From: Lysobacterales bacterium
Lineage (GTDB): Bacteria; Pseudomonadota; Gammaproteobacteria; Xanthomonadales; Xanthomonadaceae
DNA length: 64,000 nt
Assembly: GCA_017302035.1 (NCBI GenBank)
Contig: JAFLEA010000004.1
Coordinates: 21,714 to 85,713 of the forward strand
Reading direction: 5' to 3'
Positions 3,554 through 23,741 of the stretch are shown piece by piece; position 1 is the first letter of the stretch; each line of letters starts with the position of its first letter. A program made the position numbers and the translations under genes. The notes beneath the pieces are model-generated. The model had not been told where the DNA came from, did no database searches, and saw nothing but the letters and a program-made list of their open reading frames with translations.

Positions 3554-3600
3554 AATGGTGGCCGGGGACGGAATCGAACCGCCGACACGGGGATTTTCAA
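3554..3600. repeat. Left attachment site (attL): 47-bp direct repeat, 3' fragment of tRNA-Phe
   Basis: The 47 bases from 3554 are identical to 8103-8149 and stop matching at both edges. They contain the CCA end, acceptor 3' strand, T arm, variable loop and 3' half of the anticodon stem-loop of tRNA-Phe in minus orientation, but no 5' half. This is the displaced 3' tRNA end expected after tyrosine-recombinase integration into a tRNA gene. Confidence 0.95.
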
Positions 3601-3745
3601 GGCACACACCTCGGCCTGACTTGTTAAATAAAATCAGCCACTTAGCGCGCTTGCCGCCCATGTTTTTGGCAACTCAATGCATCGACGTTTCGGTTTCACT
3701 CAAGGCGCACTACCGATAAGTTGCCCAGCCACCGCGGCGGCGGCC

Positions 3746-5185
3746 TCATCGTTTGCTAGCGGACTTCTGGACATTGCCATCGATGATCACGAACTCCGAA
3801 GGCTTAAGTCCTTCCGCTAGCACAGCAGAGCGAGCTTCGCTTAGCTTCCCCATCTTCTTTGAGGTTAGGCCACCCACGTCGATAATCACGTAGTAGGCGA
3901 GCAGAGTGCCCTCAGAATTGCGATAAGCATCCAATTGCTTGGTGTAGCCATCCACAAGCTTGGGATTGGATGATCGCTTTAGTTCAATAAGAACCTTGGC
4001 GCTGGCACCACTCGACACCTTGAAGTCCACCGGACCTGCCCCACCGTCTGATTCCGGCGAAATATCCAGATCATTGGCTTCGCAGTACGACAAAGCAACG
4101 GCATAGAAAAGACGCTGCATGGCCTTCTCCATCCGAGCATGCTCATGCCTGTCGTCCCAAAGCTCCTTCCACAGCCCCCGGTCCTCAATGAGTTCTTTGA
4201 ACTTATCGATTATTGCCCGAGCGACTTCGTCAACCTCTTTCTGGCCAAGCTTCTTGCCCGAATAAAGCTTTAGATCGAGAGGGACTTCCTTTGCGATAGA
4301 TCTTCGGATATTTGCCGGATAAATCTCACCGCGATGATCATTGTCAACGTCGTAGGACTCATCAGCTGCGTTCCGAAGTACTTCAAGCAGAGTCTCGAAG
4401 GACTTCTTACTTCGCATAGCGTTTCGACGAATCTCGTCTTTGTCCTTTCGAGTCTTCGCTTTCCATATCTCTCCGATATTAGCGTTGACACGATCACGCA
4501 GGTCAGCCGTTTCCTTTGCAGCAGCCCCGACCGAGCTCCAGTCAGACGCAATCGGCAAGTCTCTGACGATGTCTTTGGGAACAAGCAGAACCGGCTCCGT
4601 CTCCTTCAGTGGATTTGGCGGAAGTTGATGGGTGGCTCCATTTAGGACGAATTCCTTGGTGCCGACACCGAGATCCTTACACTTCCGGCTCGTAAATTTC
4701 GCTAAACATTCGATGACAATGTTTGTCGTCATGTCGCTTATGCGGTCGGCTCCAACACCCTCCTCAAACAGAGCCAGGGCGACGAAGAGATTTGGGTTCT
4801 CGACGCCGAGGTCTACAACCTCCTTTGCTGTTGCGAGCATATTCCCCGCAAGCTTTTCCCCAAAGCCTGAGCCCCCTTCGCCAGATGAGTAACCAAGATG
4901 GGTGTAACCAACCTCATGAAACGAAATCTGCTTCTTGGCCGCTCGCCACGCGACGTCATCGATTTTTTTCGAGGCCGCCAACAACTCAATTATTTGGCCG
5001 AAACGTAGCTCGTATGCAGCCGTCGCGCAGTCGCGAAACTCCTTATCTGACGCTTCTGCCAAGAGCAGTGGATCTATGAAGAGGTTGGTGTCGCAATTTA
5101 GCGTTACGTCGATGGCGCCAGCTACAGTAATTGCGTCCTGATCTATCTCCCACATCATCGATAACGTCAGTGGTTCAACACCCAT
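3746..5185 (-). CDS. Putative PD-(D/E)XK-type nuclease, element cargo (possible anti-phage defence)
   Basis: I do not recognise a named family for this 479-residue protein. The C-terminal third carries G-P-V-D387-F followed 14 residues later by I-E401-L-K403-R-S, the D-X(n)-E-X-K arrangement of PD-(D/E)XK nucleases. After it comes a Q-L-D-A-Y helix, frequent in such folds. The N-terminal part opens D-T-N-L-F-I-D-P-L-L-L; the middle is helical and charged. No signal peptide or membrane segment is seen. The ATG at 5185 follows a purine-rich AGGGTGGGG; an in-frame GTG at 5215 lacks a ribosome site. Codon use is A+T richer than its neighbours, suggesting recent acquisition. No methyltransferase lies nearby, so a classical restriction-modification pair is unlikely. 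A one-gene defence function is inference. Confidence 0.6.
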   Translation of the reverse strand: MGVEPLTLSMMWEIDQDAITVAGAIDVTLNCDTNLFIDPLLLAEASDKEFRDCATAAYELRFGQIIELLAASKKIDDVAWRAAKKQISFHEVGYTHLGYSSGEGGSGFGEKLAGNMLATAKEVVDLGVENPNLFVALALFEEGVGADRISDMTTNIVIECLAKFTSRKCKDLGVGTKEFVLNGATHQLPPNPLKETEPVLLVPKDIVRDLPIASDWSSVGAAAKETADLRDRVNANIGEIWKAKTRKDKDEIRRNAMRSKKSFETLLEVLRNAADESYDVDNDHRGEIYPANIRRSIAKEVPLDLKLYSGKKLGQKEVDEVARAIIDKFKELIEDRGLWKELWDDRHEHARMEKAMQRLFYAVALSYCEANDLDISPESDGGAGPVDFKVSSGASAKVLIELKRSSNPKLVDGYTKQLDAYRNSEGTLLAYYVIIDVGGLTSKKMGKLSEARSAVLAEGLKPSEFVIIDGNVQKSASKR

Positions 5186-5584
5186 ACCCCACCCTGTTGA
5201 AAGATTGCTGGGCACGATAGTCGCACACTATTGACAGTGCATGAATTATGCGGCAGGGTCTCCGGGCCGCAGTCGCTCTTTCCCAACCTAGGTCGAATCC
5301 CCGCCAGCACTATCGGCGCGGGTTGTGCGCATCCAGACAAGACGAGATGAGCAGCCATACGACCAGATAGCCGCCAAGAATGCGCGGTCGCACCTGCCCC
5401 ACGACGAGGGCCGAAGAGATAGGTGGACCGATAATGCGAGGGGTAGCGCGCGGCGCCCCAAACGTAGAGATTAGGCTCCTACACACAGAATTCATAAGCA
5501 CACCACGCACGCAAGGGCATTGCCCGGGCGGCGTCGCCCTATGTGAAAAGCGGCCGTGGCTTCCCAAAACACTTGGAGGTCACC
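5186..5584. other. Intergenic region between divergent nuclease and Rep genes, candidate replication origin
   Basis: This stretch of about 400 bases has no convincing gene and separates two divergent units, so it must hold both promoters. Near the Rep end are two adjacent inverted repeats: GGGCA-T-TGCCC (5515-5525) and GGGCG-GCGT-CGCCC (5526-5539). Paired hairpins just upstream of a rolling-circle initiator gene are plausible Rep-binding or nicking sites, but I see no known nick consensus. Confidence 0.35.
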
Positions 5585-6850
5585 ATGTCACCGCAACACA
5601 ACGAACCCCTGTTTTCCGACGCTGCCGTTTCGACGGAGGCGCAGACGACTGCGCAGGAAGCGAACTCCGCCGGCACGGCGGAGCGCGCGCGCTGCGCTGC
5701 GGGTGCGCTACCCAGTATCACAGCACCCGCAAACTGCATTCGACCGTATCGGCACGGCGTAGACAGCCTGTATCTGTCCTTCCCCGGGGCCATCGAGCCC
5801 GAGCTGGCCGTCTGCCTGCAGGAGTGCAAGCTCAAGGCCCAGGACAGCAACGAGCACGTCATCGCCATGGCCGGCATCGGCATCGGGGACCATCAGTTCC
5901 TCGTCCTGCCGCGCGGTCGTGGGCGGTTCGCCTTCGTCCTTGAGGACAACTGGTTCTCCATCCAGCTGGCGAACGCTTCGGCCGGGCAGCTTCCGCTGGC
6001 GCTGGTACAGGTCCGGAGCGAGTACCTGACCGCTGTCGGCCCGGATGAGGCCATCCGGGTGATTTCCGGGCTGGTCGCCGGGATGGGCCGGGTGGACGGC
6101 CCGGGCCGGATCAGCCGCATCGACCTGTACGCCGATTTCGGGACTGCCTTCCCGCTCGCCGATTTCCCCGGCAGCCACTGGGTCAAGCGCAGCAAGAAGC
6201 GCTCGATCCATGAAGAGTGTGACGAGGTGACCGGCATCTCCTTCGGCAGTGGCAACGAGGTCAGTGCCCGGCTGTACGACAAGACCCGGGAGTTGCTGAA
6301 GTCTGGCAAGGACTACCTGAAGCCGCTTTGGGCCTCGGAAGGCTGGGACGGCCACAGCCAGGTCTGGCGGATGGAGTTCCAGATCCGGCGGGAAGGCCTG
6401 CCCGACCCCATGAAGGACGCGGCTGCGGCCTCGCTGGAGTTGTGCGGCAACCTCTGGCGCTACCTGTGCACGGACTGGCTGCGGCTGGCGGTGCCCTCGG
6501 ACTCCGACGACACGCGCAGTCGCTGGCCCACCCATCCGCTCTGGGACGACCTGTCCCGGCTCTGGGACATCGACCCGGAAGCCCCGCCCCTGACCCGGGT
6601 CGAGAAAACCCGCGCACCGACCGACGACTACCTGTTCCGCGCCGGGATCGCCGGGCTGACCTCGTTCATGGCCCGGGAGGGCATCGAGGACGTGGGCGAA
6701 GGCCTCGGGGAATTCCTACACGCCTTGGAGGCCTACTACGACAATCCGGCCCGGCAAATTCCGGAGGGATTGCAGGAGTACGCCTACCGCAAGTCGCGGC
6801 TGAAGGCCCGTCGCTACAACGTGCGGATGGATGCCCATGGACAGGACTAA
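5585..6850 (+). CDS. Replication initiation factor (Rep_trans / filamentous-phage RstA-like)
   Basis: This 421-residue protein resembles rolling-circle initiators of the Rep_trans class (filamentous phage RstA-type and Tn916 Orf20-type proteins). Recognisable landmarks are S-R-I-D-L-Y-A-D-F (from about residue 177), A-R-L-Y231-D-K-T-R-E and V-W-R-M-E-F-Q-I-R-R. These are strands and the candidate catalytic region of that family. The start at 5585 has a GGAGG five bases upstream; an in-frame upstream ATG at 5543 lacks one. The HTH gene begins three bases after the stop, so Rep, HTH and integrase probably form one transcript. A role in replicating the excised element is inferred from the family. 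Confidence 0.75.
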   Translation: MSPQHNEPLFSDAAVSTEAQTTAQEANSAGTAERARCAAGALPSITAPANCIRPYRHGVDSLYLSFPGAIEPELAVCLQECKLKAQDSNEHVIAMAGIGIGDHQFLVLPRGRGRFAFVLEDNWFSIQLANASAGQLPLALVQVRSEYLTAVGPDEAIRVISGLVAGMGRVDGPGRISRIDLYADFGTAFPLADFPGSHWVKRSKKRSIHEECDEVTGISFGSGNEVSARLYDKTRELLKSGKDYLKPLWASEGWDGHSQVWRMEFQIRREGLPDPMKDAAAASLELCGNLWRYLCTDWLRLAVPSDSDDTRSRWPTHPLWDDLSRLWDIDPEAPPLTRVEKTRAPTDDYLFRAGIAGLTSFMAREGIEDVGEGLGEFLHALEAYYDNPARQIPEGLQEYAYRKSRLKARRYNVRMDAHGQD

Positions 6851-6853
6851 GCC

Positions 6854-7264
6854 ATGCGCACATACGACCTGCACGAAGCGGCGCACTTCCTGCGCATGTC
6901 CCCGGCCGTCCTGCGCCTGCACGCCCGCCAAGGCCGAGTCAAAGCGGCCAAGCCGGGCAAGCGCTGGGTGTTCCTCGAAGACGACCTTGCTGCGTATCTC
7001 GGTCAGCTTTACGCTGGCAGACGGCAAGCGCCGCTAAGTGGCTCCAATCAGGAGAAATCCTTATGGGGCTATACCAACGCGGACCTGTCTGGTGGGTCGA
7101 TCTCACCACGCCGAACGGCGAGCGAATACGCCGCTCTACTGGGATTGAGGACCGAGCGCTCGCGCAGGAGTACCACGACCGGCTCAAGGTCGGCTTCTGG
7201 GAAGAGCAACGGCTCGGGGTCAGACCCCAGCGGAGCTGGCAGGACGCCGCCGTCCGGTGGGTGA
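6854..7264 (+). CDS. Excisionase-like MerR-type helix-turn-helix protein
   Basis: The first 55-60 residues form a small winged-helix DNA-binding domain: M-R-T-Y-D-L-H-E-A-A-H-F-L-R-M-S, then L-R-L-H-A-R-Q-G-R-V and W-V-F-L-E-D-D-L-A-A-Y-L. This is typical of excisionases that control recombination direction. The frame then stays open to 7264 and overlaps the integrase gene by about 200 bases. That tail is low-complexity and reads like out-of-frame integrase sequence. Either the overlap is real or a small indel removed the original stop near 7035. The domain call is good; the C-terminal end is not. Confidence 0.65.
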   Translation: MRTYDLHEAAHFLRMSPAVLRLHARQGRVKAAKPGKRWVFLEDDLAAYLGQLYAGRRQAPLSGSNQEKSLWGYTNADLSGGSISPRRTASEYAALLGLRTERSRRSTTTGSRSASGKSNGSGSDPSGAGRTPPSGG

Positions 7265-8061
7265 AGGAAACCCGCGACAAGCGGTCGCATGGAAAGGACA
7301 TAGCCAAGTTGCGCTGGCTGGATCGCTACCTCGGGCACCTGCAACTGTCGCAGGTGACCCGGGATGTGATCGACCAGATCGCCGAGCGGAAGACCCGGGA
7401 ATCGAGTCCAAGCAACGCGAACCGCTACCTAGCCTTGATCCGGGCGATCCTGAGGCGCGCAAGGGACGAATGGGGGTGGCTGGAATCCATCCCCAAGGTC
7501 CGGCTGTACCGGGAACCGAAGGGGCGCATCCGCTTCCTGTCCCCGGATGAGGCGCGGCGGCTCCTGAGCGAGCTGCCGCCCCACCTCCGGGACATGGCGC
7601 AGTTCGCGCTGGCCACGGGCCTGAGACAGCGCAACGTGTCTTTCCTGCGGTGGGAGCAGGTGGACATGGCCCGCCGTGTCGCGTGGATCCATCCAGATGA
7701 AGCCAAGGCCGGACGGGCCATTGGCGTCCCACTGAACACCTCGGCCATGGATGTGCTGGGGCGGCGGGACGGGCAGGACGCCGAGCACGTGTTTACCTAT
7801 GAAGGTAAGCCTGTGGCGCGGTGTTCGACCCGGGCATGGAAGCTGGCGCTACAGCGCGCCGGGATCGAGCGGAGCTTCCGTTGGCACGACCTGCGGCACA
7901 CCTGGGCCTCGTGGCACGTGCAGAACGGAACCCCGTTGCAGGAGCTGATGGAGCTGGGCAGTTGGGCCAGCTACGAGATGGTCCTGCGGTACGCACACCT
8001 TGCGGCGGATCACCTTCGCGGGGCGGCGTGCCGGATCGACGGCACACTGGCGACACAATAG
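7063..8061 (+). CDS. Tyrosine-type site-specific integrase
   Basis: The 332-residue product has the catalytic residues of phage-type tyrosine recombinases: R188 in T-G-L-R-Q-R-N, H275-D-L-R278-H in the HxxR box, and the nucleophile Y310 in L-R-Y-A-H-L-A-A. The N-terminal part is a short AP2-like arm-binding domain (M-G-L-Y-Q-R-G-P-V-W-W-V-D) followed by a SAM-like core-binding domain. AGGAGAAATCCTT upstream of 7063 supports the start. The gene reads toward and ends 43 bases from tRNA-Phe, its attachment target, so it should catalyse integration and excision at the 47-bp repeat. Confidence 0.95.
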   Translation: MGLYQRGPVWWVDLTTPNGERIRRSTGIEDRALAQEYHDRLKVGFWEEQRLGVRPQRSWQDAAVRWVKETRDKRSHGKDIAKLRWLDRYLGHLQLSQVTRDVIDQIAERKTRESSPSNANRYLALIRAILRRARDEWGWLESIPKVRLYREPKGRIRFLSPDEARRLLSELPPHLRDMAQFALATGLRQRNVSFLRWEQVDMARRVAWIHPDEAKAGRAIGVPLNTSAMDVLGRRDGQDAEHVFTYEGKPVARCSTRAWKLALQRAGIERSFRWHDLRHTWASWHVQNGTPLQELMELGSWASYEMVLRYAHLAADHLRGAACRIDGTLATQ

Positions 8062-8082
8062 AAAAAGGGCCTTTCGGCCCTT
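8062..8082 (-). terminator. Terminator next to tRNA-Phe at the right end of the element
   Basis: AAGGGCC with GGCCCTT (loop of 4) followed on the minus strand by a T run forms a terminator just past the 3' end of intact tRNA-Phe. The element appears to supply a replacement for the tRNA terminator it displaced to 3503-3529. Read on the plus strand the same stem could also end the integrase transcript. Confidence 0.65.
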
Positions 8083-8102
8083 CTCGCTAACCACCTGATT
8101 TA

Positions 8103-8149
8103 AATGGTGGCCGGGGACGGAATCGAACCGCCGACACGGGGATTTTCAA
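8103..8149. repeat. Right attachment site (attR): 47-bp direct repeat inside intact tRNA-Phe
   Basis: This is the exact partner of 3554-3600. It forms the 3' part of the intact tRNA-Phe plus two flanking bases, so the element restored the tRNA gene on insertion. Confidence 0.95.
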
Positions 8150-8180
8150 TCCCCTGCTCTACCAACTGAGCTACCCGGCC
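8105..8180 (-). tRNA. tRNA-Phe (GAA)
   Basis: The 76-base minus-strand sequence folds as a full cloverleaf. The acceptor pairs GGCCGGG with CCCGGCC and ends A-CCA encoded. The D arm contains GCTCAGTTGGTAGAGC, the anticodon stem GGGGA/TCCCC surrounds loop TTGAAAA (anticodon GAA), and the T arm contains GGTTCGATTCC. It is the integration target of the adjoining element. Confidence 0.97.

Positions 8181-19835: not shown

Positions 19836-23741
<3,906 letters not shown>

Follow-up and report, generated by a model that had tools for sequence, protein, structure and literature searches.

Many anti-phage systems are found on very small islands which have no transfer genes, and it is an open question how these islands move. 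A case in point is a 4.5 kb element in a Lysobacterales bacterium (assembly GCA_017302035.1, contig JAFLEA010000004.1), which lies beside a tRNA-Phe gene in the 64,000 nt stretch we have analyzed (positions 21,714 to 85,713 of the contig, the window in what follows). We consider, with a probability of about 80%, that this element is an integrative rolling-circle mini-plasmid, formed by an integration module and one exchangeable cargo gene of a defence type. This reading is based on the ends of the element, its target, an element-free site in a related genome, a conserved gene order, a changing cargo and the selective constraint found in rep and int. We have found no published description of this family of elements among open-licence full texts, a collection which excludes most subscription journals.

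Ends of the element and target site

The ends are defined by a 47 bp direct repeat, 100% identical, at positions 3554–3600 and 8103–8149 (4549 bp from start to start). All 23 of the 25-mers which are repeated on the same strand of the window come from this pair; there is no other such exact repeat of at least 25 bp. An intact tRNA-Phe(gaa) gene is found at 8105–8180 on the minus strand, so the repeat corresponds to the 45 nt at the 3' end of this tRNA, plus 2 bp. The copy at 8103–8149 is an attachment site (att) within the integration target, and the copy at 3554–3600 is the distal att, a displaced 3' part of tRNA-Phe. The integrase gene (int, 7063–8061, plus strand) lies beside the intact tRNA. 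Repeats holding a tRNA 3' end, with an integrase at one end, are what characterizes a tRNA-targeting integrative element. A previous reading of this DNA, made from the letters alone (the sequence-only reading), had described the repeats, the displaced tRNA end, the exact boundaries and the position of the integrase, and our results agree with it in these points.

The site is also found without the element. The tRNA-Phe gene falls within the stretch examined in 14 of the 16 sampled congeners, and outside it in the other two (L038 and L045). In the congener G113 (L043), mutY, yggX and tRNA-Phe have the same order and orientation as in the window; yggX is separated from the tRNA by about 120 bp, and there is a single att copy. 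It is the empty site which the sequence-only reading had proposed to look for in relatives. G155 (L044) has the same element-free arrangement.

Several side observations concern this site. Both att copies (3556–3600 and 8105–8149) have two base differences in common with respect to the tRNA-Phe of all the congeners read; the same pair of differences appears at both ends of a related element, L026. The int and tRNA-Phe genes converge on a hairpin stretch at 8062–8102, probably a terminator shared by both. This hairpin is about 91% identical to a stretch adjacent to tRNA-Phe in two congeners without the element, G239 and G262 (L036 and L051). Such a likeness may correspond either to footprints of lost copies or to a host terminator acquired by the element. 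In G227 (L041, 683–842), about 113 bp with 78% identity to the int end are found beside tRNA-Phe, with no Rep: apparently a relic. The orientation of tRNA-Phe and the adjacent gene with respect to mutY-yggX is reversed in several congeners (L036–L052). We have dropped the idea of a chromosomal inversion caused by the element, as this orientation varies among congeners which do not contain it.

Genes of the element

Only four genes were found between the repeats, all with open frames: nuclease, Rep, a helix-turn-helix (HTH) protein and integrase, as listed in the sequence-only reading. Rep (5585–6850, plus strand, 421 amino acids) would be a distant rolling-circle initiator of the Rep_trans type. 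It is followed after 3 bp by the gene for an HTH_17 excisionase-like protein (6854–7264, plus strand), whose frame overlaps int by about 200 bp in a different reading frame; searches with this protein used its first 61 residues. The integrase is a tyrosine integrase of 332 amino acids.

Rep is homologous to the one large gene of pTHEBA.01, a circular plasmid of 1,724 bp from Mesotoga prima (hhalign 99.5%, E 5e-23, 280 columns). Weaker matches correspond to Synechococcus plasmids of 1.7–1.8 kb. Six residues (R229, Y231, K233, E236, R262 and E264) do not vary in any of the 13 sequences compared, which we take to be consistent with a Rep_trans active site.

The cargo gene (3746–5185, minus strand) codes for a PD-(D/E)XK-like nuclease of 479 amino acids. 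Its N-terminal 200 residues (13–212) match the defence candidate PDC-M36A at positions 13–215 of 457 (E 3.6e-12), a part of the model and not the whole of it; the full-length protein matches phrog_30194. Relatives are found in 10 of 297 genomes of the host family, its own included. Residues E378, D387, E401, K403 and Q417 are invariant in all five aligned relatives, and this E-D-ExK-Q pattern is presumably the PD-(D/E)XK nuclease motif. In a fold search with a model of low confidence (predicted local distance difference test, pLDDT, 63.2), NucS/EndoMS and PspGI were among the best but weak matches, none of the 363 matches listed reaching E 0.001. Solved relatives sought by sequence, for this protein and for Rep, gave no credible match. 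The same nuclease is found in G124 outside this family of elements, near tRNA-Thr, together with an unrelated-looking integrase and a TIR-like protein (identified by eye).

Base composition differs along the element: the cargo stretch has 52.1% GC, compared with 66.3% for rep-HTH-int and 70–73% for the flanks. The cargo is lower in GC, as if it had a separate origin from the core.

Related elements in the family, class and phylum

Rep is present in 7 of 395 sampled genomes of the host family, its own included; carriers include Pseudoxanthomonas gei, Lysobacter sedimenti and Lysobacter spongiae. The order Rep, HTH, Int is identical in all seven copies, and tRNA-Phe directly adjoins int in six. 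In Lysobacter sedimenti, a tRNA-Phe fragment follows int and the intact gene is found some 11.5 kb further, past a second island. Every copy uncut by a contig end (window, L024, L026, L029, L030 and L031) has both att copies, at a distance of 4.5–6.0 kb from start to start. The same genes without the repeat, a finding which the sequence-only reading had named as contrary to its proposal, do not occur in any copy readable to both ends. Identity to the window copy is 77–95% for Int and 61–78% for Rep. The ratio of non-synonymous to synonymous substitution rates (dN/dS) is 0.139–0.219 for Int and 0.165–0.415 for Rep (15 pairs each), values which indicate that both genes are under selective constraint in the family.

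The second island of Lysobacter sedimenti (L024 17554 to L025 9092) looks unrelated and is stacked on the same tRNA-Phe. It was considered as an inovirus helper and rejected: by eye, its frames resemble a P4-type integrase, a primase and terminase pieces.

At class level, the Rep profile matched 12 of 369 genomes, own included. Outside the family, Int is beside Rep in 10 of the 12 loci examined, and a tRNA adjoins int in nine of these ten: Phe in three, Met in four and Arg in two. The remaining loci are one which ends inside int (L059), one which ends after Rep (L068) and one with a weak Rep and no Int (L077). Exact 18-mers reveal a second tRNA fragment in four of the nine (L069, L070, L071 and L072); the remaining five, of which some are truncated, gave none. 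The genome G723 has two copies (L074 and L075), at tRNA-Arg and tRNA-Met, on contigs which both end at the rep edge; the beginning of a rep gene is found on a third contig. In the phylum sample Rep matched 21 of 398 genomes, strongly only in its own genome and in G857, where the integrase is distant and lies on the opposite strand. Distances between Rep proteins correlate with those between integrases (Mantel r 0.90, p 0.0001, n=12), therefore the core travels as a unit.

Changing cargo

The sequence-only reading had predicted that the same Rep-HTH-integrase set would be found with other cargo, and related genomes contain precisely this. In the family, the cargo is the reverse transcriptase of a type VI retron (5.6e-73) plus an XRE protein in L030, HicB above the cut-off with HicA below it in L024, DUF2971 with a weak PDC-S31 match in L026, and HNH in L031. 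Copies from the class carry a NucS-like C-terminal domain and DUF3427 (L069), a cytosine methylase and an HNH protein (L070), AbiLi and AbiLii/RloB (L071), or PDC-S02 and a Tle1-like hydrolase (L072). L073, which is unbounded, has PDC-M68B accompanied by ABC-3C domains, as well as a type I restriction-modification gene. PADLOC models are matched at E 1e-5 or better in six of the ten bounded copies (window, L026, L030, L070, L071 and L072). The cargo thus differs from copy to copy, and to judge from these matches most of it would be of a defence type. The stretch from the left att to rep offers a compact place to look for defence genes, among them proteins without any known match.

A paired motif and a fourth gene

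A motif of about 18 bp, AGCCACTTA(G)CGGCGCTTG, searched with up to three errors, appears twice in the element and nowhere else in the 64 kb window on either strand. The left copy (3636–3653, plus strand) is about 35 bp inside the left end. The other is inverted (7025–7043, minus strand) and ends 19 bp before the int start codon. All seven family-level copies have the inverted motif 38 bp before the int start, and five of the six copies with a left end (window, L024, L026, L029 and L030) have the left motif at element positions 71–85. In the sixth, L031, the motif is found at position 812, and there is a weaker version of it close to the left att. The perfect left-end motif of this copy (L031 7689) lies some 0.8 kb inward of the left end, as though an HNH gene had been inserted beyond an earlier end. 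At class level, a version of the int-side motif is found in L072 and L080, and none in L069, L070 and L071. The motif may be an arm site for the integrase or a site for the excisionase, also located before int.

A fourth gene, coding for about 250–290 amino acids, immediately precedes rep in 13 of the 15 copies with a readable upstream side. This count includes 11 copies in one alignment, L067 (E 3.3e-7) and L079 (E down to 8.6e-57). The most divergent rows have 13–26% identity, and the assignment in L059, L071 and L072 is by position and alignment alone. The members tried against Pfam and PADLOC gave no family beyond chance-level matches. The two copies which do not have this gene are L029 and the window copy; in the latter, no trace of it is found in the region which separates the divergent cargo and rep genes (5186–5584).

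How the element might work

The following mechanism is suggested by these features. The integrase, with the HTH protein as excisionase, would recombine the two 47 bp att copies, so that the tRNA gene is restored and a 4.5 kb circle is set free. Rep would nick this circle and start rolling-circle replication. The DNA would enter a new cell by means which the element itself does not encode and integrate at tRNA-Phe, where the cargo would protect the host cell or compete with phages. The small self-replicating integrative plasmid with defence genes proposed in the sequence-only reading fits these features; replication, excision and defence, together with the transfer route and the need for a helper, are what we infer. 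Copies are short and exactly bounded (4.5–6.0 kb in the family), with one core and a swapped cargo, therefore the helper, excision and the function of the cargo can each be tested separately.

Several results weigh against this reading. A rolling-circle type of Rep, as claimed in the sequence-only reading, is favoured by the homology to pTHEBA.01, but the match of Rep to Pfam Rep_trans (PF02486) is weak, 15.4 bits with a cut-off of 29.6 (E 0.015), and only one of 13 Rep relatives matches this family at E 0.1 or better; the pTHEBA.01 Rep itself scores only 15.3 bits. The AlphaFold model of Rep is poor (pLDDT 50.7), and a fold search against the PDB gave no match at E 0.001 among the 407 listed; weak matches to folds like that of the TATA-binding protein were set aside, given the poor model. 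As for defence, cargo proteins have been scanned in part (one cargo protein of L069 was given to PADLOC), and L029 shows only chance-level matches to Pfam and PADLOC, with no defence match. Among the 17 sampled genomes of the genus, Rep is present in that of the window and in none of the 16 congeners. Excision is a prediction from the sequence, the element has a single copy in its own genome, and the window copy may be impaired, because the fourth gene is missing.

The last points would also be expected of a decaying island which is no longer mobile: the window copy is without the gene that precedes rep in 13 of 15 copies, it is single, and the congener G227 keeps an int-end relic beside tRNA-Phe. 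Against this, all four genes keep an open frame, there is no difference between the two att copies, and selective constraint acts on rep and int in the family. We consider decay quite improbable.

If the element is mobile, tailed phages might carry it, either as a satellite similar to the phage-inducible chromosomal minimalist islands (PICMIs) or as a passenger by generalised transduction, as in other defence islands at tRNA or tmRNA genes. The closest named integrases are those of Burkholderia tailed phages (48.5%), with 219 phage records at E 1e-20, and the same logic is found in PICMIs (PMC10803314) and in tmRNA islands moved by a jumbo phage (PMC12595487). However, we have identified no primase, AlpA, cos or pac site in the element, and Rep has no match in 50,697 phage records searched with two queries. 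In IMG/VR, the family profile of Rep gave 55 pattern stretches, none of them confirmed, and the class profile two loci. Transport by tailed phages is possible, and we would propose it only tentatively.

Another proposal, already present in the sequence-only reading, is a satellite of filamentous phages, in which Rep makes single-stranded circles, to be packaged by an inovirus. With 4.5–6.0 kb, the six complete copies of the family come near an inovirus in size. Zot is found in 8 of 50 IMG/VR records with close integrases (50 of 82 loci), on contigs of 5.7–12.8 kb. Two of these inoviruses and ten elements fall together in a set of 12 integrase rows, which has a support of 99 in the Shimodaira–Hasegawa-like approximate likelihood ratio test (SH-aLRT); this tree contains 56 of 87 distinct integrases, 31 similar phage rows having been left out beforehand. 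The inovirus contig L095 presents Zot followed by Rep, HTH and Int in the order of the element, with a homologous Rep (hhalign 96.2%, E 2.4e-9). On the other hand, the two inoviruses closest by integrase need not share Rep (one of them, L086, has Phage_CRI instead), the same integrases are also present in tailed phages, and none of the four genes of the element is Zot-like in Pfam. Zot is absent from the seven family carriers, own genome included, and present in one of 18 carriers overall (21 bits, just above the cut-off), compared with 31 of 198 sampled family genomes. The absence in seven carriers excludes nothing, because at that rate it is expected about three times in ten, and there is no significant depletion. 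A resident inovirus as helper was discarded, there being no Zot enrichment among carriers; a filamentous helper need not be resident. The close integrases and the Rep-HTH-Int run in one type of inovirus keep part of this proposal standing, the distribution of Zot does not favour it, and on the whole we find it unlikely.

Rep might also double as a MOBT-like relaxase, the element being an integrative mobilizable element (IME) which rides a conjugative system. In streptococci, integrative elements which do not have a transfer apparatus of their own depend on a Rep_trans protein for mobilisation (PMC7563843), and the gene logic is the same: a Rep_trans-type protein, an integrase and direct repeats. 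For this reason the statement in the sequence-only reading that the element has no relaxase was too strong: Rep_trans proteins are relaxases in some of these elements, so such an absence should not be asserted. Nevertheless, NCBIfam and Pfam scans matched no relaxase family to Rep at E 1 or better, its plasmid relatives are typed as non-mobilizable in 11 of 11 records, and the known Rep_trans relaxases are from Firmicutes, all of which makes mobilization by Rep rather doubtful.

A broader speculation combines some of these ideas with the integrative mini-plasmid. There might exist a class-wide, unnamed family of rolling-circle hitchhikers (rep-xis-int plus the fourth gene), serving as an interchangeable anti-phage vehicle and travelling as single-stranded DNA, either inside the particles of filamentous phages or, if Rep acts as relaxase, through conjugation pores; the inverted motif pair would couple excision to int expression. 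We offer it as a conjecture which has the odds against it.

Comparison with known systems

Inovirus prophages of the L095 type have the same gene order as the element, with a homologous integrase and HTH protein and a distant Rep; they carry Zot and coat-like genes, which the element does not have. The plasmid pTHEBA.01, whose Rep is homologous over 280 columns, is a free plasmid with no integration module.

The actinomycete integrative and conjugative element (AICE) pSAM2 has a tRNA target. AICEs such as this one group int, xis and rep as one operon with a rolling-circle initiator (PMC3218068), a feature shared with our element; the FtsK-type Tra and RepSA-type Rep described there are absent from its four genes. 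The PICMIs of Vibrionaceae (PMC10803314) are found next to fis with a core of int, alpA and primase. Like our element they consist of a handful of genes, for integration and excision, for replication and for defence as cargo, without capsid genes, and they depend on a helper, which the element may also need. It differs in its rolling-circle-type Rep, HTH_17 protein and integration at tRNA genes, and none of its four genes matches a primase or AlpA. The Pseudomonas tmRNA islands I23, I44 and I55, the last one transduced by a jumbo phage, also have an RNA-gene target, direct repeats, a tyrosine integrase, defence genes and no transfer genes; they are much larger and contain AlpA, and a word search (PMC12595487) finds no mention of a replication initiator. 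In streptococcal IMEs, whose target is the origin of transfer (oriT) of an integrative and conjugative element (ICE), the relaxase role of Rep_trans has been tested (PMC7563843). These IMEs share with our element a Rep_trans-type protein, an integrase, direct repeats and the lack of their own transfer apparatus; hosts and targets are different, and Rep is here a candidate relaxase. In summary, the element lacks a defining feature of PICMIs and of AICEs, but by analogy it would work like PICMIs, the cores of AICEs and the Rep_trans IMEs.

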